A stretch of DNA of 39,118 bases from a virus. The notes below the pieces were generated by a model. It was not told where the DNA came from. It ran no database searches and worked only from the letters and a program-made list of their open reading frames with translations. Location: IMG/VR virus record IMGVR_UViG_3300009285_004197, positions 1 to 39,118 of that record; one strand, 5' to 3'. Positions 2,349 to 38,298 of the stretch are shown piece by piece (positions within the stretch are counted from its first letter, which is position 1; the number at the start of each line of letters is the position of its first letter). Position numbers and translations under genes: made by a program.

Positions 2349-2822
2349 GTGGCGGGCGTGGCGAAACGGATTGAACGCCGATACTCGGATGAGTTTCGCG
2401 CACAAGCCGTGGCGACGGTGCGGGCGGAGGGTTGGCCGGACCAGGTCGGTGTTGTGCCGCGGGTTTCCGAGCAACTTGGCATTCCAAAACGCTCGCTATA
2501 TCGTTGGTTGCGTGGCGATAGCAATCCGCCGCCCGCCAATCTTGTCACGGAAAAAGAAGAGGAGCTTTCGGAGTTGTTTGAGCGCGAAATTCGAGCCGCG
2601 TTCGAGGCTGCCGGCGTCAAGCGGGAGGAGGCGAAGTATCGCGACCTCATGATCGGCATCGGGATCGCCACCGAAAAATTACAGCTCCTGCGTGGCGAGC
2701 CGACCGAGCGTCTCAGCTTCGCACTGACACCGGATGACATCGTGCGGTCTCAACAACGGATTGACGAGTGGAAACAGCAACGGCAATTGACCCGCAAACC
2801 GAACTTAAACGGGAGTTCCTAG
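2349..2822 (+). CDS. terS: Terminase small subunit (HTH)
   Basis: The 157-residue protein carries an N-terminal helix-turn-helix of the transposase/terminase kind (RRYSDEFRAQAVATVR, then VSEQLGIPKRSLYRWLRG, residues about 9-55). A long charged helical region for oligomerisation follows. TerS recognises the packaging site and recruits TerL to the procapsid. It starts at GTG 2349, immediately after the previous stop; GTG 2358 is an alternative. It overlaps the large terminase gene by 55 bases. Confidence 0.75.
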   Translation: MAGVAKRIERRYSDEFRAQAVATVRAEGWPDQVGVVPRVSEQLGIPKRSLYRWLRGDSNPPPANLVTEKEEELSELFEREIRAAFEAAGVKREEAKYRDLMIGIGIATEKLQLLRGEPTERLSFALTPDDIVRSQQRIDEWKQQRQLTRKPNLNGSS

Positions 2823-4213
2823 CCTGCTGCGACGACGTTGGATACTGGATCGACCACTACATCCAGATATACAATGCGACGGACAAACGGTGGGTTCCAT
2901 TCGACCTCTGGCCCGCGCAGGACGAAACGCTAACGCTCCTCCAGGATCATCGGCTATCTGTGGTCCTGAAGGCGCGGCAACTGGGCTTGTCGTGGCTGGC
3001 GCTGGCGTACTATCTGCACCGGATACTGTTTCGACCGGCCTACACATTGCTCATCTTTTCACAGCGTGAGACCGAGGCCATCGACCTGTTGGATTTCCGG
3101 CTCAAGGGGATGTACGAACGGCTCCCCCGTTGGATGCAACCCGGCAAGGCAACGGTCGATGGAAAACTCGACTGGCAACTCCCCAACGGCAGCGCGGCAA
3201 AGGCTTTCTCGACCACCGGCGGGCGTAGCTACACGGCGTCCGGCGTGCTGGTGGACGAGGCCGACTTCATCCCGGACCTGGACCGCCTGCTCAACGCGGT
3301 CAAGCCGACCACCGATGCAGGCGGCCAACTCATGCTCATCAGTACGGTGGATAAGAGCAACCCGGCAAGTCCGTTCAAGCAAATATACCGCGGCGCAGTC
3401 TCTGGTGAGACAGACTGGTTGCCCATCTTCCTACCGTGGTCCGCCCGGCCTGGCCGCGATGCCGTATGGTACGAGGCGCAGCGCACCGACATCGTGGCCC
3501 GAACAGGCGCGGAGGACGATCTCCATCAGGAGTATCCGGCCACCGACACCGAGGCGTTGTCGCCTCGGTCGCTCGACAAGCGCATTCCGGCGGTTTGGAT
3601 CGAAGAGTGCTACCAGCCACGCAAGCCGTTGACGCGTCACGATGGCCCCGCGCTGCCCGGTCTGGAGGTCTATCGGGCCCCGGAGGCGGCCCGATTGTAC
3701 GTCATCGGCGGCGACCCGGCGGAGGGTAATCCCACCTCGGACCCCTCGGCGGCGACGTTGTTGGATATGTATAGCGGCGAGGAGTGCGCTTGCCTCACCG
3801 GGCGCATCGAACCGGCGACTTTTGCGAGCTACCTGGACCTACTTGGCATCTGGTACAACAAGGCGCAGGTGATGGTGGAGCGCAACAATCACGGCCATTC
3901 CGTGCTACAATGGTTCAAGGAGCACAGCAGATTGCGCCTGCTAGACGGCTACGACGACAAGGCGGGCTGGCTCAACAACAGTCTTGGCAAGAGCAAGTTG
4001 TACGATGAGGGGGCCAAGATGTTTCGCGACCGGGCAACGATCTTGCACAGCGCGGAGACCTACTACCAGTTGGCGAGCATCGAGGGGGCTACGTTGCTGG
4101 CTCCGTCCGGCGAGCACGACGACCGGGCAGACAGCTACGTGTTAGCGCATGTGGGCCGGCAGCACAAGCCTAGCGCGCCCGCAAAGGTGCAAACGCCGCG
4201 GGTGCTGAGATGA
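2768..4213 (+). CDS. terL: Terminase large subunit
   Basis: The 481-residue packaging motor has an N-terminal ATPase with a deviant Walker A (KARQLGLSW, residues 68-76), Walker B with catalytic Glu (VLVDEADF, 161-167) and the coupling motif LISTV. The C-terminal RNase H-like nuclease carries acidic residues in GGDPAEG (Asp316), VMVERNNHG (Glu371) and HDDRADS (about 450-456). It cleaves and translocates concatemeric DNA into the capsid through the portal. It starts at GTG 2768 within the terS gene and is followed by two tiny membrane-protein genes and the portal. Confidence 0.93.
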   Translation: METATAIDPQTELKREFLACCDDVGYWIDHYIQIYNATDKRWVPFDLWPAQDETLTLLQDHRLSVVLKARQLGLSWLALAYYLHRILFRPAYTLLIFSQRETEAIDLLDFRLKGMYERLPRWMQPGKATVDGKLDWQLPNGSAAKAFSTTGGRSYTASGVLVDEADFIPDLDRLLNAVKPTTDAGGQLMLISTVDKSNPASPFKQIYRGAVSGETDWLPIFLPWSARPGRDAVWYEAQRTDIVARTGAEDDLHQEYPATDTEALSPRSLDKRIPAVWIEECYQPRKPLTRHDGPALPGLEVYRAPEAARLYVIGGDPAEGNPTSDPSAATLLDMYSGEECACLTGRIEPATFASYLDLLGIWYNKAQVMVERNNHGHSVLQWFKEHSRLRLLDGYDDKAGWLNNSLGKSKLYDEGAKMFRDRATILHSAETYYQLASIEGATLLAPSGEHDDRADSYVLAHVGRQHKPSAPAKVQTPRVLR

Positions 4214-4368: not shown

Positions 4369-4530
4369 ATGCGCGTGCGTGCGGGGGGTGTTGAGCACAT
4401 GAAAGAGGGTAGCTGTCCGCATACGCTAGTGATGCTGATACTACTCGCGCTCTATCTGGTTGCAGTCGTCTGGTACGGATACGGGGGATGGGAGTGGTTC
4501 CCGCTACTGATAGGTAAGCTAAACCGATGA
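4369..4530 (+). CDS. Very small membrane protein (53 aa)
   Basis: ATG 4369 begins a 53-residue frame with one membrane helix (TLVMLILLALYLVAVVWY) and an aromatic C-terminus. Its TGA overlaps the portal ATG (ATGA at 4527-4530), consistent with coupling. ATG 4399 is a shorter alternative start. Function is unknown. Confidence 0.5.
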   Translation: MRVRAGGVEHMKEGSCPHTLVMLILLALYLVAVVWYGYGGWEWFPLLIGKLNR

Positions 4531-6773
4531 CCTACAACGAAGACGACATCCAGGAGATGGTGCAGGATATCAAGACCAAGCGCGCCGACTGGGAAGTAAA
4601 CGCCGAGGCGGTGGAGAAGATGTGGGCGTTGCAGCCGTTCGAGGAGGCTCAGCAAACGTACCTACAGCAGGACGGCATCGAGGCATTTGCTACCGCCGAC
4701 CCCTACAACATCATCCAACTGTTTCAGCGGTTCGTGGCCGGGGAGCCGCGCATCGAGATACCCTACCTCACGGCCGAGAAAGCCGACGAAAAACGCAGCG
4801 GCAAAATTGAAGCCTGGCTGATGGCGTACTGGGCGCAGATGCGGAGACAGAACAGTCGCAATCCCGTCCAAGATGCAGCCTGGCACACCGGCGTGCGCGG
4901 GCGTGGCGCGATTGACGTGCAGTGGGTCGGTTTTGACCTGCCCGGCATCGCTCGAGAGGAAGGCCGCGCCCCGATTGAGACGCGTATCCTCGACCCACTC
5001 AACACCGGATTTTGTTACGGACCGTTCGGCCTGGACTACGCGTATCACAATTACAAGGCGACGCGGTCTTATATCGAGACGGTGTACCCCGACTACGAAT
5101 TTGCCGGGCCGTCGGACACGAAGCGGCGCAGCGCCAAACAGTACGATGTTGTCTCCATGTGGATTGCCGAACCAGACCGTATCCTCCACTGTGTTACCGT
5201 TGATAAGAATTTCGCCAAGCGGCCCACCAAGACCAAGTACCGCATCATCCCCATGGTCGAGTGGATGGGCGACGGCGCTCCCATCGACGACGAGGCGGCG
5301 CGCAGTCTGTCTCTGCTGCATCCCATCAACGGCTTGTGGCAGGCCAAGAGCAGGATTATCTCCAACATGGCGACCGGCATGACCTATTATTTCAACCCGA
5401 TCCTGATGCTCAAAAATCCAAAGGACGAGCCGTGGAAAGGCGATATTGAGGTGCGGCCCGGCGGCAAATTTGAGATGACTGGGGACCAGGACGCCACGTT
5501 TTTGCGGCCCGATCCCAACGTGCCGATGGCGACGACTCTCCTTAACGTCATCGACGCGCAGATACAGCAGGCGACCTTCCCGTCCGTGATGTACGGTGAA
5601 GAAGGCGGGGCCAGCAGCGGCTACGCCATCAACCAACTGGCGAGCAGCGCGCGCGGGCGGATCAATACCTGCCGAATGAATCTGGAGTCCTCCTTCGAGC
5701 GCGTCAATCAGATTATTCTCATGCTGGTGGAGGTCTTCGGCGGCGACGAGGGCGTTACGCTCATGGTGTCTGGGCGCGAGCCGGGCGAGCGGGGCGCGCC
5801 GTTGACTCTGAGCAAGAAGGACATCCAGGGCAACTACGCCAATGAGGTGCGGTTGGTCCCGGAGATTCCTACCGACGAGACGCAGCGGCTGGTCACCTGG
5901 GACACATTGGTGGAGCATGGTCGCGTGAGTAATCAATTTTACCGGGACAGGATCATCAACGTGCCGGTCCCGCGCGACGAGGAACTCCGTATCTCGTTGG
6001 AGCAAGCGGTCAAGAGTAGCCCAGAGTTGCAGCAAAAAATGTGGCTTGCGGCCATCCGGCAGAGTTTTAAGGAAGGCGACGAGTGGCGGCGTCTGATTGC
6101 CGGTACCCCTTACGAGCAACTCAACCAGGCGGAGGAGGCCTGGGTCGAGCAGGAGAAGCAGCGCAAAGAAGCGGAACGACTGGCGAAAGCTCAGGCCAAG
6201 GAGCAGGAGCAGCAACAGGCGAAAGAACAGGCGGCGATGGACGAATATCTCCGCACGGGCCAACCGCCGGAGGGATGGCACGCGATGCCGGACGGCTCGA
6301 TCATGCGGGACAGCGACATGCAAGAGACGGGCAATGGCCTGCCACCGCTGATGCCGCCCGGTCCGCCGATGGACTTGGGGGCCTCACCCGGTGAATCGCC
6401 CATGGCGGGCGCACCCAGGGGGTTCCCGCCGCCATCGCCCGGTATGCCGCCTGCCATGCCCGGCGCATTACCTCCTGAGCAAACGGGTATGTTGGGGGGT
6501 GGTCTACCTCTTGGCCTGCCCCCTGGTATGGGGCCGGGTCCAAGTCCGCAAGGCCCGCCACTGCAAGGCCCATTACCGGGGCCGCCCGGCGTGCCGCCTG
6601 AAATGGGTTCCGGAGGGATCCCCGGCCTGACGCCTGAGATGATGGGTGTACCGCCGGAGGGGGGACCACCGGGCATGTACCAGGCGATGCAGGGTGCGCC
6701 ATTGACGGAGGAGGAGATTGCGCGGCGCTTGCTGGGGGCCATCCAAAACGGGCCACCGCCACCGCAGAGATAA
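4527..6773 (+). CDS. Portal protein with collagen-like Pro/Gly-rich tail
   Basis: The 748-residue protein resembles podovirus portals in length and position. Its N-terminal half is mixed alpha/beta; GIARE and the long region up to about residue 530 form the ring. A helical, Lys/Gln-rich coiled coil (about 525-575) follows. The last 130 residues before a short terminal helix are extremely rich in Pro, Gly and Met, in PPG-like triplets. The portal forms the dodecameric vertex through which DNA enters and leaves, binding the terminase and later the adaptor. It follows terL closely, as usual. The Pro/Gly tail is unusual and might face the capsid interior. Confidence 0.85.
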   Translation: MTYNEDDIQEMVQDIKTKRADWEVNAEAVEKMWALQPFEEAQQTYLQQDGIEAFATADPYNIIQLFQRFVAGEPRIEIPYLTAEKADEKRSGKIEAWLMAYWAQMRRQNSRNPVQDAAWHTGVRGRGAIDVQWVGFDLPGIAREEGRAPIETRILDPLNTGFCYGPFGLDYAYHNYKATRSYIETVYPDYEFAGPSDTKRRSAKQYDVVSMWIAEPDRILHCVTVDKNFAKRPTKTKYRIIPMVEWMGDGAPIDDEAARSLSLLHPINGLWQAKSRIISNMATGMTYYFNPILMLKNPKDEPWKGDIEVRPGGKFEMTGDQDATFLRPDPNVPMATTLLNVIDAQIQQATFPSVMYGEEGGASSGYAINQLASSARGRINTCRMNLESSFERVNQIILMLVEVFGGDEGVTLMVSGREPGERGAPLTLSKKDIQGNYANEVRLVPEIPTDETQRLVTWDTLVEHGRVSNQFYRDRIINVPVPRDEELRISLEQAVKSSPELQQKMWLAAIRQSFKEGDEWRRLIAGTPYEQLNQAEEAWVEQEKQRKEAERLAKAQAKEQEQQQAKEQAAMDEYLRTGQPPEGWHAMPDGSIMRDSDMQETGNGLPPLMPPGPPMDLGASPGESPMAGAPRGFPPPSPGMPPAMPGALPPEQTGMLGGGLPLGLPPGMGPGPSPQGPPLQGPLPGPPGVPPEMGSGGIPGLTPEMMGVPPEGGPPGMYQAMQGAPLTEEEIARRLLGAIQNGPPPPQR

Positions 6774-6788
6774 TGTGGAGGGAACAAC

Positions 6789-7901
6789 ATGGCACAAGCG
6801 TATAGTTTCATGGCGACACCGCCAAAGGCGAAGAATACCCTGACGGGCGACCCATCAACGGGGACGGTGAGCTACCCCGGCAGTCAGCCGAAGACGGGGA
6901 CAGGGACTACTTTCCCCACACGGCCTTCCGCGCCCACCAATCAACTGTCGGTTGGCAGTCAGTGGAGCCTACCGGCGTGGAACGGACAGATACCCTCCAC
7001 CGTACCATCGCGCAATACGGCAGATGTCAGCAATCCGGGGTCGCCAAGTCGAGTTCCGAATTGGTCCTCACAGTTCAACACTGACCAACTGTATAACCCG
7101 GCCTCGTTCAACGAGCCGAACTCACCCTACTCGCGAATGTTGGAGAATAGCCTACCCGTTTCCCAGTTCCTTCAGAACGCCAACCAGTACCAGAGTGACT
7201 TTGACGAGGCGCAGCGCCGTTGGAATCTGGAGCAAGGTTGGAATCAGTCTACCGACCAATTCAATATGGGCTTGGCGGGCAGGCAGCAAATGAGTGCTGA
7301 GGAGCAGGCGCGCCTGGCGGCGGAGCAATGGAACCAACAGTTTGGTTGGACGCAACAGACAGACCAGTGGGGCAGAGAACTAGGGCAGGGTCAGTTGGCG
7401 AACGCCGTACAGGAGACCGCCAACACGGGGGCCTATCAGACGGGCATCTTAGCGAATACGGCGCAGGAAAATCGTAACACTGCGGCCTACCAGCAGGGTC
7501 AGTTAAAAAACCAAGCGCAGGCGAATGCCATTGACCAGGCGTACAAATCGGGACAAATTTCGTTGGGACAGCGGCAGGCGGCCCTAGCGGAACTCACGCA
7601 GCGGCAGGACTACTCGATCCAACAGGGGCAACTCGGCGTACAACAACAGGCGAATGCCATTGACCAGGCGTACAAGTCCGGCCAGATCAGCAACGAGCAG
7701 CGCAACCTAGCGTTGCAGGAGTTGACGCAGCGCCAGACCTACGGCTTACAGCGGCAGTCAATGGCCGAACAGGTGCGAGCCACACAAGCGGCGGAGGCCA
7801 TGCGGCAGCAGGAGATCAACCAGCAGATGCAGATTGCGGCGATGCAGGCCTACGGGCGGAGCACCGCACCTCAGGCGCAATGGGCAAGGAGTTGGGCATG
7901 A
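6789..7901 (+). CDS. Gln-rich repetitive virion-region protein
   Basis: The 370-residue protein starts at ATG 6789 with GGAGGG at 6777-6782. The first 110 residues are Ser/Thr/Pro-rich and probably disordered. From about 120 on it is helical and extremely rich in Gln, Ala and Asn, with imperfect internal repeats including two copies of QANAIDQAYKSGQIS. It lies between portal and giant protein, so a capsid-internal or scaffold-like structural role is plausible. I recognise no family. Confidence 0.75.
   Translation: MAQAYSFMATPPKAKNTLTGDPSTGTVSYPGSQPKTGTGTTFPTRPSAPTNQLSVGSQWSLPAWNGQIPSTVPSRNTADVSNPGSPSRVPNWSSQFNTDQLYNPASFNEPNSPYSRMLENSLPVSQFLQNANQYQSDFDEAQRRWNLEQGWNQSTDQFNMGLAGRQQMSAEEQARLAAEQWNQQFGWTQQTDQWGRELGQGQLANAVQETANTGAYQTGILANTAQENRNTAAYQQGQLKNQAQANAIDQAYKSGQISLGQRQAALAELTQRQDYSIQQGQLGVQQQANAIDQAYKSGQISNEQRNLALQELTQRQTYGLQRQSMAEQVRATQAAEAMRQQEINQQMQIAAMQAYGRSTAPQAQWARSWA
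7518..7675 (+). repeat. Pair of 29-bp direct repeats inside the Gln-rich gene
   Basis: A 29-bp sequence beginning caggcgaatgccattgacca occurs identically at 7518-7546 and 7647-7675. The copies are 129 bp (43 codons) apart, so the protein has a 43-residue internal duplication. Confidence 0.85.
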
Positions 7902-8300: not shown

Positions 8301-11300
8301 ATGGCGTCGGGTTGGGGTGGTCTCAACGCAATCATTGAAGAGGCGCGGCAAAGGCGTGAGGAAGAAGCCGCGGCGGAGGAGCGTCGGCGGGCGTTAGAAG
8401 AACAGCGCGCGCGGGATCAATCCGCCTGGCTGCCGCCTTCCTGGTCGCCGTCCCCGCTGCCCCCGCGTGAGGGGGGGCTGTCATTGAAGCCTGCCCGCGT
8501 CGGTATGGACGACCTAGCCCTGGACCGCGTGGACACCGGCGCGCCGTCGCTCTATGCCTCAGACGTTTCGGAACCCACTGTCACAGCACCCCGCACGCCT
8601 TTGACCATCCAACCACAGGCGTTGTCCCCGGAGCTACAGCAGCCTGCCGGTAGGCGCACCATTCCCAGCGGATGGGGTGGCCTTAGCGGGCTAGGGGGCA
8701 TCACGCCGCCTGAGCCTGTGATAGGGCAATCGCAACAAGAACCCACTGTGCCTAGCGGGTGGGGTGGCGTCTCAGGGTTGAGCCGGGCCACCACTTTGAC
8801 CCCGCCGGGACCGGAGACGTGGGCAGGCACCCCACAACTGATTCAACCTTGGCAGCCGCCGGACTGGTTGGCACAGGGCGCAGCCGCGGTAGGACGTGGG
8901 GTGCAGGCGTTAGGCGCGGGAGCGCAAGCCATCGGGACGAGCGACGTTCGTCTACCCGGCGATCTCCGAGAGGGTTTTTCGGCAACCCAATCGTTCTTGA
9001 ACCAACCCGCCGCTCAATACTGGCAGGAGGCGTTTCGTCGCGACCTTACGCGGGCAGGGGAGACGCCGGGCGTCATCCCCAACGTGCAGCGGGTGACCAA
9101 AGCACCGGACTGGGTGCAAGAGGTTGGACAGAGCATAGGCCTATCTCCCCAGCAAGTCGACATCGGCTGGAAGATGCTCGTGCCGGAAGCGGCGGTGTGG
9201 GGTGTGATGTCTTCCAGTCCAGGCAAGACGGCAGGCGCTTACGCGATGACGGGGGTGAACTGGGTTTTTGACCAGGCCCGCACCCTCGCCTCGACGCCCG
9301 CCGATGAGCTGGCGCAAATCGTCGCGGGCGTGCCCGGCACGCCCGGCACGCCCGGCACGATGTTACCGCCTGCCACGGGATTGCTGGCGATGGGGCGCGG
9401 GGTGGGGGGAGATTTGAGCAAGGCGACCGGCGCAATCGCTCAGGGCATGTCACTGCTCGCGCAGCCGGACGGGGCCATGCCTGCCCTGCTCATGTTGTTA
9501 GGTGGAGCAGCCTACGGGACTGGCTTGTTTAATCCGAGAATCCAGAAGATTAACTTCGACCGGGAGATGTCGGGATACCGGGCCGTAATGGATTGGTTAA
9601 ATGGGCTTCCGTCTGCCGAACGGGAGACGGCGGGCCTAGCGATGGCGAACATGATTAGCGGGCCCAATGCGGTGCGCCAAACCGCTGAGGCGTTGATCTC
9701 CAAACCGCAAATCCTTGTCGATCTAAACGCGCAAGCGGCAGCTATTCAGGACGGCACCGCTTTTCGCTATCAAACGGACGCCGAGTACGAAGCCGCGATT
9801 GACGCGCGCAGGCGCGAAACCGGGCAGGAAGCGCGGATTGTTGCCGAGGGAAGAACCGGCGTTGGTCCCTCACTGCCCTCCTTGGCCCCGTCGTCCGACG
9901 CTCTGCTCAACGAACTCGTCCAAGAAAGATTCGACTTTAACCACCGCGAGTTGGCGCTGGCGCAGAAAGGGGCGGAGATCGAACGACTGGAAAAGCTCAT
10001 GCCGGCCGACATTGTAGAGCAGTATATGGACCCCATTTCCGAGATTTTGTACGGCGTCATCGTGGACCCCTGGAATCTAAAAATTCCCGGCTTCCTCTCC
10101 AAGTATTCACCAACGGTGGCGAAGATCATGGGCGAGGCCGATGAACTATTTAGCGCAGGACCAAGGCAGGCGGTGCAAAACATAGAGCAAGCCCAACAGG
10201 CGACGGGGCCGGTCATGGAAGCACTCCGGCAGGGCTTGGTACCGGAAGGGGACAAGCTGGTCAAGTGGAATCCCTACACATGGTGGCGGCGCACACCCTG
10301 GAGTAAGGCCAACTTAGACGCTAACTGGTTGACCGACCTGTCGAGCTTCCTTTTTAAGGATGTGACCTACAAGGAAGACGCCCGCACGATTTTGCACGCG
10401 CTCAACAACAACCCGGAACTGCTCATTGCGGGAATCGCGGTGCGCTCGCCCACCGCCATGGAAGGTATAGTGAGAATCCCGCCAAGCGTAATCGGCAATC
10501 GGGAAGTCGCCCAGCGTTTGCCCATTCTATCCATGTTACCGGAAAACTGGGTAGAAGGCCTGGTCTCGTTACAGGGCGAAGGGGTCTTTATCCCGAAACA
10601 ATTGCAAGCGGAAGTGGACACGCTCTTTTATGAAGGAGCGAAAAGGTTCCACGGGCTGGGACTGTTGGTGGGTGCGCCGGTCGGCACGGTGGACGTGCGT
10701 CTGCGGCGTCTGCCGGACGGGACCGGCATCGTGGAGTACGTTGACGAGGCGGGCACGGTCATCAGTGGCACGGAACCCATGCCCTTTGCCGACGCCGATC
10801 TGCAAGTGACTCGCCTACGCGCAGCAGCCAAACAGGACAAAACTCTGTTTCAGCAGATAGGCAGCTTGCCGCGACGAATCGCCTGGTTTCAGCGGGCGGT
10901 GATGTCCGACAACTTTTTGGCGCTCTCGATACGCAACATCATTCGCAACTCAGAATCGGCTGTCGCCCAGGCGTTTGGCGTCGATGCCTATAGTTGGCTA
11001 TCCAGTGACGAAATTGTCAGGGAATGGGCGAAAGACTTTGGCGGTCTCGCACCGGGTGAACGCGGACTAGCGATGCAGACGGATTACGTGCGCGGGGCGG
11101 CGGGGGGACTTAACCAACCGAGCAGCGGTCTCTATGATGCAATCGCTCAGTTTATCACCAAGAACCCCGACAATCCCGTCAGTCGTTTTATGCGCGGGGC
11201 CTACAACCTATCCTACGGCAAGGCCGAAGTGCCGCTTGGCAAGGGGCGCAGCTATGGTGTCAGCGAGGAAGTCAACCGCTTCAAGGTCAGCTTTGAGGCT

Positions 11301-14300
11301 TATCGCAAAAGCAAGCGCGCGTCTCTACTCAGCGACGGCGACCAACTTGTAGCTGACCTGGCGGCGCTGCCCAATGCGCCGCCGCCCGAATGGTTGCGAG
11401 GGCTGTATAACATTTACGTCGAATACGGGCAAAAGGGGACCAAGCAAGAATTATTCAACGCCCTGCGCGATTATGTAAATGGCGATGCCTCCAAGGTCGT
11501 CACCTTGAAGGCGATGGGCATTGAACCCGGCATCATAACGAACGAGGGTTGGGAGCAACTACACGATATATTTGCCCGTATCGACTCCCTTAGCGATGAC
11601 GAGTATCGTCAGGCAATTGACATACTCTTTGAGGGTGAGAACAGTTCCTCGTGGCGGTCACTGACGGACTACCCGCCGCAGCGCGGCGTCTATGAGTGGT
11701 CTGATGTGGTGAACCCGACGGAACGGGGCGTACTGCACGGTAGTTTGATACAGTCAGCGCAGTTGGCCGGAATCGACGCCGCGCAGGCTCAGGCTCAGGC
11801 GGATCGCGTGATTGAAGCCATTATTCAGGGTGAGCGCGCAGGCTCATCGGCGTTTATCCAAGAGCTTTCCGACTTGTTACCGCAGGCTACGCCAGAACAG
11901 GCGCGCCAATTGTGGGGCGCTGCGATGGATTTTGCCTACGACGACTATCTAGCGCGGGGCGTGGCGCGCACGGTTTCCGATACCGCAGCCAATCGTGCGC
12001 TCGAATTGAATACGTCCGCAGGTTGGATCGATAAATTCAACCGAACGGCCCTGGCCTGGGAGGAATACGGGACGGGTTTGGCGCAGCGCGGGGATGAGTA
12101 CCGACAGACGCTACTCGGTATTATGAACGGCCAGGCCTACAGTCCGAAGGAAAGTCCCTGGGATGCCGTGCGGCGATGGGTGACGTATGATCCCGTTGAG
12201 TTGGAAATCGCGCGCAGCATCCCGCTGGGCAAAGCGAGCCTGGAAGCTAAAGCGGAATGGGACCGTGTGATCCAGGCGAACCGCGCGGCGGTAGACCACA
12301 GCGTGGCGTACCTGTTCGACGCTTTCCGCCGTTATCCCACCCTGGCTAGTTTTGATATTCTCAACCAGGCGTTACGGGAGGTGGCGGAGGTTGGCGGGGT
12401 GGCCAATGCGTGGGTCAGCGCGCGCCGGGCGGAGGCATTTGCCGGTACGTTAGACTGGACGAGATTCTATCAGGTACGTAACCAGGCCTGGACTCAAATG
12501 GTGGATGACCAGGTAGCGTTAAACCAGGCCTATGCGCGGTCCATCGTGGCGTTGGCCGTCACGGAGCAGGCGGGCGACACGATCAAATGGACCGACAGCG
12601 GTTTTATGGGCGGCGAGTTCCAGTTGCGGTTCCCGAACCCGGACGGGACGTGGACCGCCAAGCGTCTGTCGGATGGGCAGGACATGACGTTTGCTGCGCC
12701 TGGCAGTGGGACCGCCATGCCGGAAGTGCCACAGAATGTGTACGACGCCTATCTGCAAGTCGCCAAAGGCGAGCAGCAGGTAGACCAGGTGATGGAGGAC
12801 GTAGCGCGCACGGTGGGGCCGGTGGAGAAATATGCGCCGCCTGCCGCGCCCCAGGTTATGCCGGGCAGTTTGGAAGCGCCAAAAACTACACCGCTTGTAG
12901 CGAAAACCGGGGAGGTGACGGCGGCACTACCCGCGACGTCCGCCACCGCGCCAACCGCACAGCCCCTGCTGCGTGGAAATATCCCGCTAGACCTTTACGA
13001 CCGACTCAGGGAGCTTGACTATCCTGGAGCCTGGATCGCGGCAATGACGCCGGAGCAGGCACTAAAGGCATCTTTGTTGTTGGAGACGCCTTTATCTGTA
13101 CCGACAGATATTATACCGGAGGCATATCCCATCGCAGCCGATGTAGTATCGCATCAGTTATGGCCCTGGCTACGTGGTTTGGGCTATACCCCGGAACAAA
13201 TCGCTTCGCTTACACCGACAGAGGCATGGGACCTGATTCGTACACGGCGAGCCGAAATTCCAGCTTTATCACGTGTCGAAGATATAGGTCGCATACCGTT
13301 GGCTGAACTGGAAGGTACGGCTCCGCTCCAAAGGACCGCGGCTGAGCCTGTAGCCGTCTCACCGTCTCGGGTAGACCCCGCATGGACGAAGAAGGAGTTG
13401 GTGGCTGAGTACGGGGACACGCTACGCGCGCAGGCAGAGGCCACGCGGGTAGTTGAGGAGGCTATTCCCGGAGTACCGGCAGGGGGCGTTCAGGGGGCCG
13501 CGGCCAAAGAGCCGTGGCAACTGACGCCGGAAGAGTTGGCTCGGGTTGATTGGGAAACGTCGGGGAGCGGCAGCCGTACACCCAAGCGCGCTTTTGAGTT
13601 GAGACGAAACAAGGGGTCCGATGCGGATGATTGGGAATCTCTTTACGATTTTGTCACCAATCATGATCAATACGACGTAGATGAGGTTTTGGGCAAGAAC
13701 TACGATCCCAAGCAGTACGCCGAGGGCCGCGCGATTCTGAACAAGGCCAAACGAAATCAACCGATCACTGTTTACCGGACAGCGGAATCGGAATTTGATA
13801 ATGGGATTTTGCCTGGTGCGTACGTCAGCGAATCTAAAAGCTACGCGCTGGCGCACTCTGAACATGTTGGGATGGCAAAGCCTAAACTCTTTTCCGTTCA
13901 GGTTTACCCTGATGAACTGCTTACCTTTGGCGACGCCCATGAGTATCTCTATATCCCCCGCGACCCGGAGATAGCCCAACAGCGCCTCGTGGCATGGGCA
14001 GAGGCCACGCGGGTGGTTGAGGAGGCTCCCCTAGATACGTTGACATTTAAGCAAGTATATGGAGAGGATTCTCCCTACTCGTCCACTGTCCTGAGAATCA
14101 TCCAGGAGGAAGTCGATAAGACAGTCGAGCGACGCGGGCTACGCGCCAACGCCCCGCAGGTTTCGGACATCAGAAAAAGACTGATAGACGACCTATACGA
14201 CAACAAAAAACCGGTTGTGTGGAATCGTATCAGGAAAGAGTTGGCGCGCGAGGAGGCGGTCAGAGAAGCCCGCTTGACCGTAACTCCCGGCGCTTTTATG

Positions 14301-17300
14301 CCGGACGATGAGAAGTTATTGGCGCGGGCGGGGCCGCCCGCGCAGGTAGACCCGACCACGCTGACCAAGAAGGCCATGCTGGACCAGTACGGCGACACTC
14401 TCCGCGCCGAGGGGCTGACCGACGCGCAGATGGGTCGTATGTCCAAGCGCGAGTTGGCGGACAGGATCAACGCGCCGAAGGTAGACCGGGCGCAGGCCGT
14501 CAAGACTGGGCTGCGCGGTGGCGGTCCCATGACGCAGGCCGAAGCAAAGGACGTTGCCAACCAGATTGCTCAGGAATGGGACCGGGTAGCGGTCGGTGAA
14601 CATGGACTCGCGGGCATTGATGGCATGGTGCTGGGCTATAAACGCGGCGGCGCGTTCAATATGAACCTGAACCGCGGCGAAGTGACCAAGTTCCGTGACT
14701 TATACGGCAACACCATTGCAGGCCGACAGATCAACGATATCAACGACGTGGCGGCTCTACTCAGCGAGTATGATCGGGCTAAATCCGTCGCACGTGAGGC
14801 AAGGGTGACAGACGCCCAGGCCGCACTATTCGAGACGATGACCGGGCCTGAGATCGTGGACGCAGTGGCGGACGATTTGCGGATGGGCGGCTTCGATGAC
14901 GCCCAACTGGAGGCTCTCCGTCAACGTCCTCGCAAAGAGATCGTGGATTACCTGGCTAACTTCTATTACCCGGACGAGACTGGTCCCGTCTGGCGAACCT
15001 ACGACTTCAAGGTTCCTTCCTTCCTGGACATGGACCCCAACGACGATCGCAGTCTGTACGAAATGTTACTCGACAACCTGTTCCGCAGCCGGAAGTCAGG
15101 CGGGCTGAAAGCGGATGAGGCGGGGGACGTGACGCGTGGTCTGATCCGTGACAAGGAAGCAGCCCGCACAATTCTGCTCAACGAACTGCCTAACATTCGC
15201 CGCGGGAACATTGAAAACACGCTGACCCCGGCGCAACGACTGCGCGTTTGGGATTTGGTGCGCCGTTATGCTACCCAACGCTATGATGAAACGTTGGGTA
15301 AAGCGAAGTACGTAGCCAACCGGGTGGGCGAATGGGTCATGCTCGACATGAGAACGGGCAACCGTTTCATCGACCAGGGTTTGCGGCTATTCGTGCCCTT
15401 CCATTACTTTGTCTCACGGATGCCGTCGCGTCTGGCAATGTTGGCGATCAACAACCCGGCCATGCTCAACATTTACTACGAAACTCAACGACCGATTGAC
15501 CGCTATCACCGGCAGAACGAAATGCCAGTTCGCTTCAAAGGGAAAATTCCCACCGGCATCAAGACACCAATGGGAGAGCTTTTTATCGACAACCCGTTTG
15601 CCAGCATTCTGCCCTACGGCACCTATGTGAACCCCAATCCGTACCTCTCGCCGGAAGATGCGGCGGGGCCGGTAGAGCGCAAGCTAAACAGCGTGACGCA
15701 ATGGAACCCGTCCGGGTTTATGCCCCTCGTTCAGTTTGGCATTGCCGCTGGGCTTGACGCCTACGAACCGCTACCGAACGGGAAAAAGCGAACCGATGAG
15801 TTTGAATTGGGGGACAATATTCCCCTGTATCGCATACTAGGCTACGGGATACAGGCGGCGACGGGAAACGTTGCGCCGGGCGCAACCAAGGGACTCTTGC
15901 GGTCAGGCGATCAGTATGATGTCAATCGGGCGAATCGGACGGCGGCCAGCCTGGGGACGGAACGTAACATATTCTCCGTCGTCGTTCAGTACGCCCAGCA
16001 GATCATCACCAATCGCTACAACCGCGACCCGGAGATGACCAACGTAGACGAGCGGTACTACGCCGACGCAAGGGCGCTGGCGGAAGAAAGTATTCGCGTC
16101 GCGGGCCTAGAGCGCCTATTGTCGACCGGGGCTTCTTTGGCTACCAGTCTGCCGATTTATGCGTATCCGCCGGGCGAGGAGCAAAATCGCGCGGCAGGTC
16201 GCCAGTATTGGGGGCTTGGCTACGACATGAACGGAAACCGCCTGGGCGGGCGGACGGCGCAGCGGCAATTCATGGAACAGAACCCAGGCTTGGAGGGCGC
16301 TTGGTCGGCGGGGGATGTCGCACCGGGTTTAACCGCAACCCTAAATGCGACCTATGATGAACGGTCCCGTCAGTATGAACTACGCAAGGAGGCGGAGCAA
16401 GCGGCGGTCAACCAACTGCGCGACCGCAATCCCAACGCGCCGATCCGTGAGATCACTGCGGCGAAGAATGAAGCGACCGCCACCTATGATCAGCGCATTG
16501 ACGAGTTGACGGGACAGATCAATGACATCAAAAAACGGCAAGGCGCGGTCGAGCCACCACGCACGGCCTTCCGTGACCCCACCAGCGGTATGAATCCGCA
16601 GGAACGGGAATCGGCCTATGTGCAGGGCATCGTCGGTAACGCATGGAACTTGCCGGGTAGACCGACCAGACCCGATGAAGCCACGGCGACGCCGGAAGAA
16701 ATGCAGGCATATTATCAGGCGTATGCAGAGTATGCGACCAAGCAAGAAAACTATGTCGTCAGTGCCTTGACGCAAGGCCCAACCACCGACTACCAGCGTT
16801 CTCAGCGAGGTGGCAACAAAGGTTACACCGACGTGGCGGCCCGTGAAATCTGGTGGCAGGCACAGAACAAAAACACGTCCGCCTGGGAGCTTCGCCGGCG
16901 CGAAGAAGAGGACCGCAAGTGGGATGCGATTGACACGGCCACGGCGGTCAATCTACGTGACGCCAAGCAGCGCATTCCCGGCGGTGACCGGATTCTCCAG
17001 ACCTACCTGAACACGCCGGCAGGGGACGAGCGAGCCGCCTTGCGGGATAAAGACTGGCGCTATGCGGCGGTGACGACAGCGGCCTACAATCCCGACGTAT
17101 GGGATGCCATGATCTCCGAGTTCGGGTTGGCGAAGACCCAAGCGTACTATATGGGACGCAGCGCGCCGAAACCGGAATGGCCGCGCCCAGAGGGTTCCCG
17201 CAACGCCACGGAAGAAGAACTCCAGACGTACTACACTGCACGTGACGAGTACTTTGTGGCTCATCCCCATGAGGAGGAGATTGGCCTATGGCTGTATGGG

Positions 17301-18749
17301 CGGTTAACTTATTCCGATTTTAACCAGACTCAAGGAGGCCCGTGGCGCTACGAGAATGGGCAGTGGGAAAAAGCAGAGAGTCTATTCCCACGGTTTGACC
17401 AGGGCGCACAGTACGACAAGGCAATGGAACTATTCACTCCTCGCATCTTCGACATTGAGCGCGAGTTCAAGCAGGCCAGCGTTGATGGTAAGTGGAGGCA
17501 ATGGCGCGACAGTCACAAAGCGGATTATGCTCTGCTGGTTGGATATCAAGAATGGCAAAAATCACTGATCGAGATTCCCGGAACGGACAAAACTGCGGGA
17601 CCTATTGTGGCGCAACTGCCCACCACGCGGTGGGGCGTCAACCCTGCGGAACAGATCATGACGCCCGTGCCGCAAGGGATGCAACCACGGGAAGTGACTT
17701 CCCGCACGCCGGGAACCAACATCCCGCAAGGGTGGGGTGGCATCAGCGGCATGGGACGGCCTGCGCCACAGCAGACATTCATCCCCACGTGGGGCGACGC
17801 ATTGCCGCCGCTAGGTGGGCAGCCGCCCGAGCGCCCCATGGGCCCAGTCGCACCACAACTCGGCATGGCAGGCGTCAACCTGCCGCCGGAGACGGAGCGC
17901 ACCGCACGGCAGTGGGCTATGCAAAGCGAGTCGTTCCAAAAGTCGGCTGCGTGGGAAGCGCGACGGCAGGCCGTGTATACGGAGTTCGGCGAGGACACCG
18001 GAAACCTATACGACCAATACCTGGCGCTACCGAAGGGAGATGCGCGGTCCGCGTTTAAGGCGGACCATCCCGAATTGAGGGCCGTATCCCTGTACACCTG
18101 GAACCCAGATGAGTATGCGTATCTGACCGAAACTTACGGCAAAGACGGCGTGATGACGTGGGCCATGACACCGACCTGGGCGGACACGCAACAAGCCAAG
18201 CAAGCGCGCAGCGATTACTACGATGCTCACCCGCAGGCATTTGAGATCAACGCGTGGCTGTATGGCCGACCGGGGGACCAGGGGGCGCTCGGCGGTGAAG
18301 GCGACATCACCGACGACGAGACCTTTACGTACAACTTCGGAGCCGATTATGACACAGCAAAGCAGATGTTTGGCGCGGACATCTGGACCATCGTCGCTGG
18401 TTACAAACGTGGTTGGGACAAGCAGACAAAGGCGGCTTACTTTGATCAGTATCCGCAACTGAGCGCATTCTTCGACTGGTGGTATGCCAACTTGCCGGAC
18501 ATGGGCGTGACGGCGGCGGCTGGGTATGGGCGCGCTTACTACGGTGGCGGCGGCGGCGGCGGAGATTATGTCTACGAGGGGGGCTTCGACGCTTATGTTG
18601 ACCCGCGGCAGATGCAGAGCACGCTCTGGTATGGACCGGATAGAAGGCAGGCGTATCAGCCGCCGCGCTGGTATGCGCCTGGCTGGTTGGGTGCGGCGCG
18701 GGACATCGGACCGGAGCCGATCCGCAAGTGGCAGCCGCCGAGATGGTGA
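8301..18749 (+). CDS. Giant 3482-residue virion-associated (polyvalent-type) protein with ART-like domain
   Basis: This single frame covers 10.4 kb between portal and scaffold. An Arg/Glu helix (residues 10-40) is followed by Pro-rich linkers with repeated SGWGG motifs. Predominantly helical modules follow, with hydrophobic stretches near 290-460 and a conserved-looking RNIIRN motif near 875. An ADP-ribosyltransferase-like module lies near 1720-1900 (ITVYRTA, then GAYVSESKSYALAHSE, then HEYLYIP). A motif LFVPFHYFVSRMPSRL near 2361 resembles a feature of other very large phage proteins. Two homologous C-terminal copies (about 2890-3005 and 3228-3322) and a Gly/Tyr-rich tail end the protein. 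Position and size suggest an internal protein ejected with DNA, comparable in role to T7 gp16 or P1 DarB-like proteins. That role is inference. Confidence 0.8.
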   Translation: MASGWGGLNAIIEEARQRREEEAAAEERRRALEEQRARDQSAWLPPSWSPSPLPPREGGLSLKPARVGMDDLALDRVDTGAPSLYASDVSEPTVTAPRTPLTIQPQALSPELQQPAGRRTIPSGWGGLSGLGGITPPEPVIGQSQQEPTVPSGWGGVSGLSRATTLTPPGPETWAGTPQLIQPWQPPDWLAQGAAAVGRGVQALGAGAQAIGTSDVRLPGDLREGFSATQSFLNQPAAQYWQEAFRRDLTRAGETPGVIPNVQRVTKAPDWVQEVGQSIGLSPQQVDIGWKMLVPEAAVWGVMSSSPGKTAGAYAMTGVNWVFDQARTLASTPADELAQIVAGVPGTPGTPGTMLPPATGLLAMGRGVGGDLSKATGAIAQGMSLLAQPDGAMPALLMLLGGAAYGTGLFNPRIQKINFDREMSGYRAVMDWLNGLPSAERETAGLAMANMISGPNAVRQTAEALISKPQILVDLNAQAAAIQDGTAFRYQTDAEYEAAIDARRRETGQEARIVAEGRTGVGPSLPSLAPSSDALLNELVQERFDFNHRELALAQKGAEIERLEKLMPADIVEQYMDPISEILYGVIVDPWNLKIPGFLSKYSPTVAKIMGEADELFSAGPRQAVQNIEQAQQATGPVMEALRQGLVPEGDKLVKWNPYTWWRRTPWSKANLDANWLTDLSSFLFKDVTYKEDARTILHALNNNPELLIAGIAVRSPTAMEGIVRIPPSVIGNREVAQRLPILSMLPENWVEGLVSLQGEGVFIPKQLQAEVDTLFYEGAKRFHGLGLLVGAPVGTVDVRLRRLPDGTGIVEYVDEAGTVISGTEPMPFADADLQVTRLRAAAKQDKTLFQQIGSLPRRIAWFQRAVMSDNFLALSIRNIIRNSESAVAQAFGVDAYSWLSSDEIVREWAKDFGGLAPGERGLAMQTDYVRGAAGGLNQPSSGLYDAIAQFITKNPDNPVSRFMRGAYNLSYGKAEVPLGKGRSYGVSEEVNRFKVSFEAYRKSKRASLLSDGDQLVADLAALPNAPPPEWLRGLYNIYVEYGQKGTKQELFNALRDYVNGDASKVVTLKAMGIEPGIITNEGWEQLHDIFARIDSLSDDEYRQAIDILFEGENSSSWRSLTDYPPQRGVYEWSDVVNPTERGVLHGSLIQSAQLAGIDAAQAQAQADRVIEAIIQGERAGSSAFIQELSDLLPQATPEQARQLWGAAMDFAYDDYLARGVARTVSDTAANRALELNTSAGWIDKFNRTALAWEEYGTGLAQRGDEYRQTLLGIMNGQAYSPKESPWDAVRRWVTYDPVELEIARSIPLGKASLEAKAEWDRVIQANRAAVDHSVAYLFDAFRRYPTLASFDILNQALREVAEVGGVANAWVSARRAEAFAGTLDWTRFYQVRNQAWTQMVDDQVALNQAYARSIVALAVTEQAGDTIKWTDSGFMGGEFQLRFPNPDGTWTAKRLSDGQDMTFAAPGSGTAMPEVPQNVYDAYLQVAKGEQQVDQVMEDVARTVGPVEKYAPPAAPQVMPGSLEAPKTTPLVAKTGEVTAALPATSATAPTAQPLLRGNIPLDLYDRLRELDYPGAWIAAMTPEQALKASLLLETPLSVPTDIIPEAYPIAADVVSHQLWPWLRGLGYTPEQIASLTPTEAWDLIRTRRAEIPALSRVEDIGRIPLAELEGTAPLQRTAAEPVAVSPSRVDPAWTKKELVAEYGDTLRAQAEATRVVEEAIPGVPAGGVQGAAAKEPWQLTPEELARVDWETSGSGSRTPKRAFELRRNKGSDADDWESLYDFVTNHDQYDVDEVLGKNYDPKQYAEGRAILNKAKRNQPITVYRTAESEFDNGILPGAYVSESKSYALAHSEHVGMAKPKLFSVQVYPDELLTFGDAHEYLYIPRDPEIAQQRLVAWAEATRVVEEAPLDTLTFKQVYGEDSPYSSTVLRIIQEEVDKTVERRGLRANAPQVSDIRKRLIDDLYDNKKPVVWNRIRKELAREEAVREARLTVTPGAFMPDDEKLLARAGPPAQVDPTTLTKKAMLDQYGDTLRAEGLTDAQMGRMSKRELADRINAPKVDRAQAVKTGLRGGGPMTQAEAKDVANQIAQEWDRVAVGEHGLAGIDGMVLGYKRGGAFNMNLNRGEVTKFRDLYGNTIAGRQINDINDVAALLSEYDRAKSVAREARVTDAQAALFETMTGPEIVDAVADDLRMGGFDDAQLEALRQRPRKEIVDYLANFYYPDETGPVWRTYDFKVPSFLDMDPNDDRSLYEMLLDNLFRSRKSGGLKADEAGDVTRGLIRDKEAARTILLNELPNIRRGNIENTLTPAQRLRVWDLVRRYATQRYDETLGKAKYVANRVGEWVMLDMRTGNRFIDQGLRLFVPFHYFVSRMPSRLAMLAINNPAMLNIYYETQRPIDRYHRQNEMPVRFKGKIPTGIKTPMGELFIDNPFASILPYGTYVNPNPYLSPEDAAGPVERKLNSVTQWNPSGFMPLVQFGIAAGLDAYEPLPNGKKRTDEFELGDNIPLYRILGYGIQAATGNVAPGATKGLLRSGDQYDVNRANRTAASLGTERNIFSVVVQYAQQIITNRYNRDPEMTNVDERYYADARALAEESIRVAGLERLLSTGASLATSLPIYAYPPGEEQNRAAGRQYWGLGYDMNGNRLGGRTAQRQFMEQNPGLEGAWSAGDVAPGLTATLNATYDERSRQYELRKEAEQAAVNQLRDRNPNAPIREITAAKNEATATYDQRIDELTGQINDIKKRQGAVEPPRTAFRDPTSGMNPQERESAYVQGIVGNAWNLPGRPTRPDEATATPEEMQAYYQAYAEYATKQENYVVSALTQGPTTDYQRSQRGGNKGYTDVAAREIWWQAQNKNTSAWELRRREEEDRKWDAIDTATAVNLRDAKQRIPGGDRILQTYLNTPAGDERAALRDKDWRYAAVTTAAYNPDVWDAMISEFGLAKTQAYYMGRSAPKPEWPRPEGSRNATEEELQTYYTARDEYFVAHPHEEEIGLWLYGRLTYSDFNQTQGGPWRYENGQWEKAESLFPRFDQGAQYDKAMELFTPRIFDIEREFKQASVDGKWRQWRDSHKADYALLVGYQEWQKSLIEIPGTDKTAGPIVAQLPTTRWGVNPAEQIMTPVPQGMQPREVTSRTPGTNIPQGWGGISGMGRPAPQQTFIPTWGDALPPLGGQPPERPMGPVAPQLGMAGVNLPPETERTARQWAMQSESFQKSAAWEARRQAVYTEFGEDTGNLYDQYLALPKGDARSAFKADHPELRAVSLYTWNPDEYAYLTETYGKDGVMTWAMTPTWADTQQAKQARSDYYDAHPQAFEINAWLYGRPGDQGALGGEGDITDDETFTYNFGADYDTAKQMFGADIWTIVAGYKRGWDKQTKAAYFDQYPQLSAFFDWWYANLPDMGVTAAAGYGRAYYGGGGGGGDYVYEGGFDAYVDPRQMQSTLWYGPDRRQAYQPPRWYAPGWLGAARDIGPEPIRKWQPPRW
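13433..14027 (+). repeat. 31-bp direct repeats flanking the ART-like module
   Basis: A 31-bp sequence starting ggcagaggccacgcgggt occurs at 13433-13463 and 13997-14027 with a single mismatch, 564 bp (188 codons) apart and in frame. Each copy encodes AEATRVVEEA. The sequence between them holds the ART-like domain and is visibly more AT-rich in its centre than its surroundings. Confidence 0.85.
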
Positions 18750-20009: not shown

Positions 20010-21218
20010 ATGGCAATTCGATATTCCTATACCGATACCACGACTCCAATTCGTGGTATCGGCGACACGATCTACAACATCGACTTTCAGCATGCACCCC
20101 TACTGCAACTGTTGAGGTTCGACAGCAAGAACGAGAGTAAGATCAGTATCAAGTCGGGCTGGCCCAATACCAAGCTCGAATGGTTGGAAGACGTCAACGT
20201 AGCGTTTACGACCTTGCTGACCGAGGACATGGACGGGTCGGAGACCGGCTGTGACGTGACCACCGGCACGGGCCAGTACTTTCGCCAGGGCGACGTTCTG
20301 GCGATCTACGCCGCGGCGGATACGGCACGCCAAACCGTGTTGGAGCGATACCTGGTCACGAGCGTCAGCACCGATACGCTGACTGTGGTGCGTGGGCACG
20401 GCGCAACCAGCGCAGTGGCGACAGCCGTCACCGGCGACACCGTCTTCCTGGAGACGCGGGCCGCGCCGGAGAACAACTCCTACGTCACCGAGCACATGAC
20501 CACGCCGACCGCGCCGTATAACTACACTCAAATCCTGCCGGCGGCGGTCGAGATGTCCCGTACCGAAGCGCACATGACGCGCTACGGCATCAAGGACCAC
20601 ATGGATATGCAGGTCGCCAAACTGTTCGACAACGGCGGCAGCGAGGGCAGGCTGGCAAAGCTGCTGCACGGTATCTTCTACTACGGCGAACGTGTAATCC
20701 GTAGTTCGGGTAATGCCTACGGCTTTGCCGGCGGCTTTGACACGTTTGTCACCAGCAGCACGGCGAGTGCGAACCACGTGTTCAGCATGAGCAGCGCCGC
20801 GTTGCGGAAAGCGGACATGCACAAGGTCATGCGTGCGATTGCCGACAGCGGCGGGCGTTGTACGCACATCGTCACCGACTCCTGGCTCTACGAGAAGATT
20901 CCGACCTTCTACGAGGACAAGGTGCGGACGGTGGAGGAGAAGACCGTGCGTGGGATGCCGGAGGTGATGGAGATCATCACGCCGCATGGACGCGCCAAGG
21001 TTCTCTACGACTACTTGTGTGCGCCGGGTACGATGTACTTTCTCAACCAGGAAAAGTGCGGCTGGTTGCCGTTCGACGAGTTTGACCGCAGGAAGGTCTA
21101 TGGCGACGACGCCAACCCATACGACGGCTTCATAGAACAGGTAATCGGGGAATATACGTTCTTCCTGGCGAACCCCAAGAGTTTCGGCAAAATTTCCAAT
21201 TGCTCGATTACCAAGTAA
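20010..21218 (+). CDS. Major capsid protein, SU10/DUF5309-like HK97 fold
   Basis: The 402-residue protein starts at ATG 20010 after AGGAGGG. The N-terminus (GIGDTIYNIDFQHAPLLQLL, then KLEWLEDV) matches SU10-type major capsid proteins (PF17236-like), where a NID..PL core is followed by W-containing strands. A beta-rich insert (about residues 83-150: RQGDVLAIY, then LTVVRGHG, then TGDTVFLE) looks like an added domain. The C-terminal part (PEVMEIITPHGRAKVLYD, then FFLANPKSF) fits the A-domain. It forms the icosahedral shell and follows its scaffold. Confidence 0.85.
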   Translation: MAIRYSYTDTTTPIRGIGDTIYNIDFQHAPLLQLLRFDSKNESKISIKSGWPNTKLEWLEDVNVAFTTLLTEDMDGSETGCDVTTGTGQYFRQGDVLAIYAAADTARQTVLERYLVTSVSTDTLTVVRGHGATSAVATAVTGDTVFLETRAAPENNSYVTEHMTTPTAPYNYTQILPAAVEMSRTEAHMTRYGIKDHMDMQVAKLFDNGGSEGRLAKLLHGIFYYGERVIRSSGNAYGFAGGFDTFVTSSTASANHVFSMSSAALRKADMHKVMRAIADSGGRCTHIVTDSWLYEKIPTFYEDKVRTVEEKTVRGMPEVMEIITPHGRAKVLYDYLCAPGTMYFLNQEKCGWLPFDEFDRRKVYGDDANPYDGFIEQVIGEYTFFLANPKSFGKISNCSITK

Positions 21219-36907: not shown

Positions 36908-37180
36908 ATGAGTATAACACTTGAGTACAGCAATAGCAAGGATGTCACGACCCGCAATCTGGACGCCCAGGCCGCCCGGCGTGACCTGGAATGGCAACGT
37001 GGATTCGGCGCTTGCCAGTTCGCAGAGTGCAGCTACGCCGACCTGCCGAACGAGGACCAGCGCCAGGGCTGGCGAGCCGCCGAACGAGCCGGGGCCGATG
37101 CCGATACCGAGACGTACTTAGCCGACCGCCGTCATGCCACCGACGAATATACTGTCGTTCGCGAACTAGGAGCGTGGTAA
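36908..37180 (+). CDS. Small protein of unknown function
   Basis: The 90-residue protein starts at ATG 36908. It has a short strand-like start (MSITLEYSNSKD), then Arg/Trp/Ala-rich helices (ARRDLEWQRGFGACQF, RQGWRAAERAGADADTETYL). Two bases separate its stop from the recombination gene. Unknown; possibly an accessory of the annealing protein. Confidence 0.6.
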   Translation: MSITLEYSNSKDVTTRNLDAQAARRDLEWQRGFGACQFAECSYADLPNEDQRQGWRAAERAGADADTETYLADRRHATDEYTVVRELGAW

Positions 37181-37182
37181 AC

Positions 37183-38298
37183 ATGAACGCAATGATTCCC
37201 GTCACCGTACACGCCGATGAACTGGATACAATCCAGCGCACGGCCCGCCTGTTGGCGGTGTCTGGCTACTTCGACGCCAAAGGCGACACGCCGATGGCAA
37301 TTGCCCAACTCGCGACCAAGATTCTAGCCGGTCGTGAACTTGGTTTTGGTCCCTACGCCGCTGCCCGTGGCATCTATATCATCAAAGGCAATCCATCCAT
37401 TTCTGCCAATCTCATGGCCGCCGCCGTCAAAGGCAGCGGACGCTATGACTATCGCGTCAAGGAGCTCACTGACGCCAACTGCGTTGTGGAGTTCTTCGAG
37501 TTGTCAGCCGGCAAGCGCGAGTCGTTGGGCGTGTCCTCGTTTAGTGCCGCCGACGCCAAGAAAGCCGGAACGCAGAACATGGACCGTTTCCCGCGTAATA
37601 TGCTATTCGCCCGCGCCATGTCTAATGGTGTGCGGTTTTACACGCCAGACGTGTTCTCCGGCAATGCCGTTTATTTGCCGGAGGAACTTGGCGCGAGTGT
37701 GGATGGAGATGGCAACGTGGTAGATGTGGAATTGCCCAGGCGCACCGTAGACGCCGCGACAGGCGAAATCCTACCAGTCGCCCCCGCAACGCCCCGCAGC
37801 GCCCCGCCTATGCAGCCTAGCGTCGGGATTGACGGCGACATGCTGTTTGGCACAGACGCCGCCGCCTTCAATCGCATGGTTCCCGGCGCTAATGCAGGCA
37901 TTCCCTGGTATACCGCCGCCCGTGAGACCCTCACCCCTGCCATCCGGATCATAGCTGATGATCTGCTCACGCTCCACCGCAACAACGGCGGCCCGTGCAG
38001 TCCGAAGGCATACGGCTACCTCAGTGGCCTACTCGATAGTGTAATCGAGCAGGCGACCGGCGCTGAGGATGCACATCGCCGCGTACTGACCGTGCTATGC
38101 CAGATGGACGTGACCGACATCAACCGGCCATCCGCAACGATGGTGGGTCGCCTGTTGGCGTATCTCGCCACACACATCAAGGATGCCGCTGGGAACAAGG
38201 TTGAGAACCCGGACTATTCGCAGCTCATCGCCGATGCGATGGTAGCCGTGTTCCGGGCAGCCGAGGCCGTAGGCACGTCGTCGCTACTAGAAGCATAG
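37183..38298 (+). CDS. RecT/Red-beta-like single-strand annealing protein (candidate)
   Basis: The 371-residue protein starts at ATG 37183. The first 180 residues match a widespread phage family: TARLLAVSGYFD, then KILAGRELGFGPYAAARGI, then KGNPSISANLMAAAVKGSGR, then SFSAADAKKAG, then PRNMLFARAMSNGVRFYTPD and FSGNAVYLPEEL. The order of segments resembles RecT-type annealing proteins. The C-terminal third is a separate helical region (PKAYGYLSGLLDSVIEQAT). It is probably used for recombination-dependent replication or genome circularisation. No exonuclease partner is visible next to it. Confidence 0.55.
   Translation: MNAMIPVTVHADELDTIQRTARLLAVSGYFDAKGDTPMAIAQLATKILAGRELGFGPYAAARGIYIIKGNPSISANLMAAAVKGSGRYDYRVKELTDANCVVEFFELSAGKRESLGVSSFSAADAKKAGTQNMDRFPRNMLFARAMSNGVRFYTPDVFSGNAVYLPEELGASVDGDGNVVDVELPRRTVDAATGEILPVAPATPRSAPPMQPSVGIDGDMLFGTDAAAFNRMVPGANAGIPWYTAARETLTPAIRIIADDLLTLHRNNGGPCSPKAYGYLSGLLDSVIEQATGAEDAHRRVLTVLCQMDVTDINRPSATMVGRLLAYLATHIKDAAGNKVENPDYSQLIADAMVAVFRAAEAVGTSSLLEA

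Follow-up and report, generated by a model that had tools for sequence, protein, structure and literature searches.

The DNA analysed here, referred to as the window, is a virus record of 39,118 bp (IMG/VR IMGVR_UViG_3300009285_004197). Its gene order runs from the terminase large subunit and portal through an unassigned gene at 6789-7901 and a giant open reading frame (ORF) at 8301-18749 to the major head protein.

2768..4213, + strand: terminase large subunit (phrog_2, E 6.9e-31)
4527..6773, + strand: portal protein; in contig L100, too, the giant gene is preceded by a homologue (34% over 501 aa, E 4e-89)
8301..18749, + strand: giant ORF of 3482 aa, encoding a probable virion (polyvalent-type) protein, between the portal and major head protein genes (orthologue in L100)
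20010..21218, + strand: major head protein (phrog_1328, E 1.9e-20)
36991..38298, + strand: RecT-like single-strand annealing protein, a possible agent of short-homology exchange (phrog_561, E 4.3e-17)

The giant frame is uninterrupted across 8301-18749, and its 3482-aa product is encoded among virion genes, from portal to major head protein, as is characteristic of polyvalent proteins. Pfam detected none of the known effector or LPD domains of such proteins in it, although relatives of the domain family described below do have such domains. Gene position indicates that the giant protein is probably packed into phage particles, and it is this position only that suggests its injection into the host.

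Several further repeats were seen in the record. Tandem arrays of 15 bp at both ends (5-140 and 38659-39118) code for pentapeptide repeats (ANLSG-type, frame from 38575), and the record ends probably fall inside one pentapeptide-repeat gene. At 34132-34220, CAGGATGTCTACCCTGT occurs four times at a spacing of 22-23 bp in an iteron- or operator-like arrangement. A 41-bp direct repeat lies within gene 6789-7901 (7518-7558 and 7647-7687, 90% identical), and ORF 21229-22905 holds a 78-bp repeat (21465-21542 and 21549-21626, 76% identity, 84 bp apart).

Direct repeats within the giant gene

Near the middle of the giant gene, two direct repeats bound a segment that carries a single domain.

13433..13463, + strand: left 31-bp direct repeat, encoding QAEATRVVEEA
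13464..13996, + strand: repeat-bounded segment with the domain
13997..14027, + strand: right 31-bp direct repeat, encoding WAEATRVVEEA

The repeats, of sequence GGCAGAGGCCACGCGGGT[A/G]GTTGAGGAGGCT, are identical at 30 of 31 positions; their sole mismatch is synonymous (GTA/GTG, Val/Val) and both copies translate to (Q/W)AEATRVVEEA. From start to start they are 564 nt, or 188 codons, apart and in frame. Since the giant gene contains no other direct repeat of at least 24 nt above about 85% identity, chance is no reasonable explanation for the pair. The GC content at 13602-13994 is 0.509 compared to about 0.60 for the giant gene, which places it in the lowest 0.7% of equal-length sliding windows. 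As such, the initial annotation was accurate in describing 31-bp flanking repeats with one mismatch, an open in-frame segment of 188 codons and an AT-richer centre.

Related TKK...YGDTLRA stretches were also observed at 13371-13430 and 14340-14470 (YGDTLRA at residues 1704 and 2030). The first is broken off near the left repeat, and the second, in our own reading, presumably resembles a SAP/Rho-N-like helix motif.

The variable region and the origin of the segment

For the giant protein, a single close orthologue was found, a 2853-residue open frame, L100. By BLASTP, window residues 547-1507 align with L100 residues 550-1447 and window residues 2257-3393 with L100 residues 1510-2567, and the stretch between them differs.

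12822..15068, + strand: variable region, residues 1508-2256, in place of which L100 has about 62 residues (BLASTP)

The domain is absent from L100 and from the other giant-protein relatives examined, namely L002 and the pair L101 and L102, which look like the same protein. Because L100 replaces residues 1508-2256 and no relative examined has the domain, it can be located in the variable region. Two further orthologue scans returned nothing beyond the contig of L100, and scans for close relatives using the module, the C-terminal region and the major head protein gave no match.

A recent gain of the segment, or its loss, by recombination between the repeats had been proposed from the outset. The missing domain in L100 agrees with this; however, it is missing there together with about 750 residues as a block, so that no gain or loss can be placed specifically at the repeats. 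Relatives with one repeat copy and no module, which the initial annotation suggested looking for, did not appear among the viral contigs scanned, where the 26-base core of the repeat had no exact match. It is quite conceivable, if short of an even chance, that the repeats are unrelated to the acquisition of the domain. In that case the whole 750-residue region would have been gained or lost in one piece, and local duplication or gene conversion within it would have produced the 31-bp repeat afterwards. The block-wise absence of residues 1508-2256 from L100, the lack of a single-copy relative in that search and the presence of another partial repeat (YGDTLRA) in the variable region would all fit such a history. 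Against it, the repeats enclose one complete domain with an AT-rich core, which would be unexpected for random local duplication.

Exchange at the 31-bp repeat is plausible, since a RecT-like gene is present in the phage and Rad52-like recombinases of phages, RecT among them, can work with short homologous stretches (PMC3945230). In the order of events that we infer, cargo domains of the variable region would be swapped by short-homology recombination, perhaps via the RecT-like protein of this phage, and the 31-bp repeats would be the scar or handle of such an exchange. A repeat-bounded domain inside one ORF would then offer a rare view of a virion protein exchanging its cargo at the level of single domains.

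The domain family

The family was reached through a weak tblastn match to a Vibrio phage protein that is itself a clear member of phrog_2579 (E 3.5e-28); the direct match of phrog_2579 to the window segment is weak (E 0.0094). Scanning IMG/VR for the family gave 80 loci and a genome scan gave 12. A family HMM was built from 67 viral sequences of the IMG/VR scan with the window sequence excluded, and hmmsearch with this profile on the giant protein scored the domain at 28.3 bits over residues 1811-1889 and the whole sequence at 33.2 bits (E 9.4e-10 in a search of every six-frame ORF of the window). The highest score among 2000 shuffled segments was 8.6 bits. Family membership of the window domain is therefore solid, a window-free profile giving 28.3 bits against at most 8.6 for shuffles. 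The family domain falls entirely between the two 31-bp repeats, and the bounded segment is a genuine and complete domain of a phrog_2579-like family.

13608..13982, + strand: envelope of the domain in the family HMM search, residues 1770-1894, with its aligned core at residues 1811-1889 (13731-13967; hmmsearch and AF2)
13776..13778, + strand: codon of Arg1826, a residue shared by all 69 relatives that may supply the R of an R-S/T-E triad
13827..13829, + strand: codon of Ser1843 (Thr in 80% and Ser in 20% of relatives; within the scan pattern)
13941..13943, + strand: codon of Glu1881 (Glu in 97% of relatives; candidate catalytic E)

Aligned relatives share the motifs YR, G-[DA]-[WY]-V-[ST], YAxxH and E-[FYW]. 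Across 69 relatives, conservation amounts to 100% for Arg1826, 99% each for Tyr1848 and His1852 and 97% for Glu1881; these four positions lie outside the scan pattern and all are kept in the window copy. By comparison, the scan pattern itself called for I1836 and 1839-1845, which inflates their apparent conservation. The stretches singled out by the initial annotation, ITVYRTA (starting at residue 1822), a Ser-containing strand (GAYVSES, 1839) and HEYLYIP (1880), proved to be conserved family positions. The window copy, which is 18-33% identical to the family, has the near-invariant Arg, YAxxH and Glu (R1826, Y1848, A1849, H1852 and E1881). It carries GAYVS and EYLY in place of the full GDWV[ST] and E-x-GY motifs, and because these are incomplete it was classed, on its profile score, as a divergent relative.

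Stand-alone members occur in T4-like Vibrio phages, in a 327-kb contig as a canonical 324-aa frame (L044) and in MW202462, where the gene lies near that of the terminase; the family is also found as a stand-alone domain in jumbo phages. Furthermore, it is embedded in very large phage ORFs. Four of the seven viral records with family-bearing large ORFs also contain ART-PolyVal, in ORFs of 2592-5708 aa with one or more matches each (L035, L043, L067 and L083), and the two domains were verified as one reading frame within the locus in L083, L035 and L067. A 648-aa frame of a Methylococcales contig carries ART-PolyVal as well. Additional domains in family-bearing ORFs include LPD37 in L067 and RadC in L064.

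Pfam gave no match for the window module, NCBIfam gave no meaningful match in the 18 family relatives scanned, and sequence searches of the PDB were likewise without a meaningful match, the family having no solved structure. The more general result of this analysis is that the family is widespread in phages and has no Pfam or NCBIfam model. Weak matches to PF14550 (XkdF phage serine protease) were seen in seven family relatives (best E 2.9e-4). The PHROGs label 'ParB C-terminal domain' was not adopted, as it is the name of the PHROG and no separate sign of ParB function was found; it is probably misleading.

Fold, proposed role and comparison with known systems

ADP-ribosyltransferases (ARTs) are enzymes that place tags on other proteins, and the initial annotation took the segment for an ART-like module of the kind associated with phage MuF proteins. 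The latter association was not recovered, as neither the giant protein nor gene 6789-7901 matched MuF. For the fold, AlphaFold2 with a 70-sequence family alignment gave a model with pTM 0.73 and core pLDDT of 84-93; AlphaFold on the segment as a single sequence was unusable (pLDDT 36). A PDB structure search with the model, as had been suggested for ART folds, returned no match at E<=0.001 and TM-scores of about 0.3 at most. By plain tally, no other coherent group was nonetheless as frequent among the neighbours as the ART superfamily (KptA twice, PARP14/15 chains, pertussis S1 chains and MbcT twice), and the top probability, 0.18, belonged to KptA (TM-score about 0.29). The rank-1 neighbour, IcmQ, also contains what we take to be an ART-like domain. 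A control model of the segment, poor and of low confidence, had two ART structures among 15 matches, with a probability of 0.01.

In a viral structure library, 14 matches reached E<=1e-3, one of them titled large polyvalent protein-associated. Next, after the family members, came an ART-PolyVal-like protein (E 7.6e-3, probability 0.75, poor TM-score), which counts as weak evidence because such proteins can hold both domains. Profile comparison by hhalign with two families, ART-PolyVal and KptA, was no better than with column-shuffled decoys (102/200 and 43/200 decoys scored as high), and genome searches to widen the ART-PolyVal alignment gave few matches. In linear sequence, R1826, S1843 and E1881 follow the expected order of an ART triad, and the R-S-E clade has this same R, S/T, E order (PMC9503650).

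A discrete domain, the conserved R...S/T...E order, co-occurrence with ART-PolyVal and a fold search that leans towards ART together make an ART-like fold likely, even with no significant PDB match and hhalign at decoy level. The ART reading is thus favoured but unproven. It is less likely that the family instead has some other alpha/beta fold, with the R...S/T...E order coincidental in a structural or binding domain, for example a partner of the neighbouring ART-PolyVal. This would account for PDB matches that are all non-significant, for the negative profile comparison with two ART families and for members scanned matching no Pfam or NCBIfam ART model. It would not readily account for ART folds being the commonest and top-probability structural neighbours, or for an Arg and a Glu that are near-invariant outside the scan pattern. 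Even if the family is not ART, a widespread phage domain with no Pfam or NCBIfam model deserves naming.

Whether the window copy works as an enzyme is a separate matter. The alignment shows that it has changed family-conserved residues (D1840A, W1841Y, G1883L and P1829E), and these losses mean that it may be inactive; activity is rated somewhat less likely than not. A degenerate ART-like remnant, which the giant protein would retain as a spacer or as structural filler, appears rather unlikely. Its D, W and G have been lost, which are 100% conserved in relatives (D and W partly through selection by the scan pattern), and identity to the family is low, which would suit a remnant; however, the Arg, Ser, Tyr, Ala, His and Glu positions are kept, the frame is open and a confident core is still predicted.

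Our preferred explanation, with a probability of roughly 0.55, is that the segment is a cargo domain in the variable region of a giant virion protein, belonging to an unnamed widespread family with most likely an ART-like fold, and that it would act in early host modification and be exchanged through short homology. The giant protein would be packaged and then delivered along with the DNA, and the domain, with NAD+ as its substrate, would modify some component of the host in the early phase of infection, its candidate active site comprising the Arg of strand 1, the Ser/Thr of strand 2 and the Glu near the C-terminal end. More broadly, one may speculate, with considerable doubt, that a new R-[S/T]-E ART clade under the 'ParB C-terminal domain' name is a common injected phage effector that passes from one giant virion protein to another as a cassette bounded by repeats, via phage annealing recombinases. 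Should the family be an ART clade, the effectors that phages may bring in at entry would include one more that is conserved and currently misnamed, and a testable enzyme would be gained.

Among known proteins, those of phrog_2579 (Vibrio phage 1.081.O NVP1081O_040, Vibrio phage VH7D CF80_gp301 and Mycobacterium phage Bask21 gp133) belong to the same family and share its YR, GDWV[ST], YAxxH and E-[FYW] motifs. These are small stand-alone proteins, whereas the window copy is divergent, lies within a giant protein and is flanked by direct repeats. The KptA/Tpt1 RNA 2'-phosphotransferase (PF01885) is the highest-probability PDB neighbour of the predicted model, but at the low probability and TM-score given above and with no profile similarity. 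ART-PolyVal (PF18760) shares giant phage ORFs with this family, in some cases at a short distance, and has a similar order of a basic residue in strand 1 followed by a G-x-[YW]-[FV]-[ST] motif. However, the ARTs of polyvalent proteins are of the H-Y-D type (PMC5512222), in contrast to the strand-1 Arg and terminal Glu of this family; the profile comparison was non-significant and the window module did not reach the Pfam cut-off of PF18760. Finally, although the window protein has no detected Pfam domain known from polyvalent proteins, it resembles the polyvalent proteins of phages and conjugative elements (PMC5512222) in being very large, in its place among head genes and in carrying an effector-like domain in a variable region.
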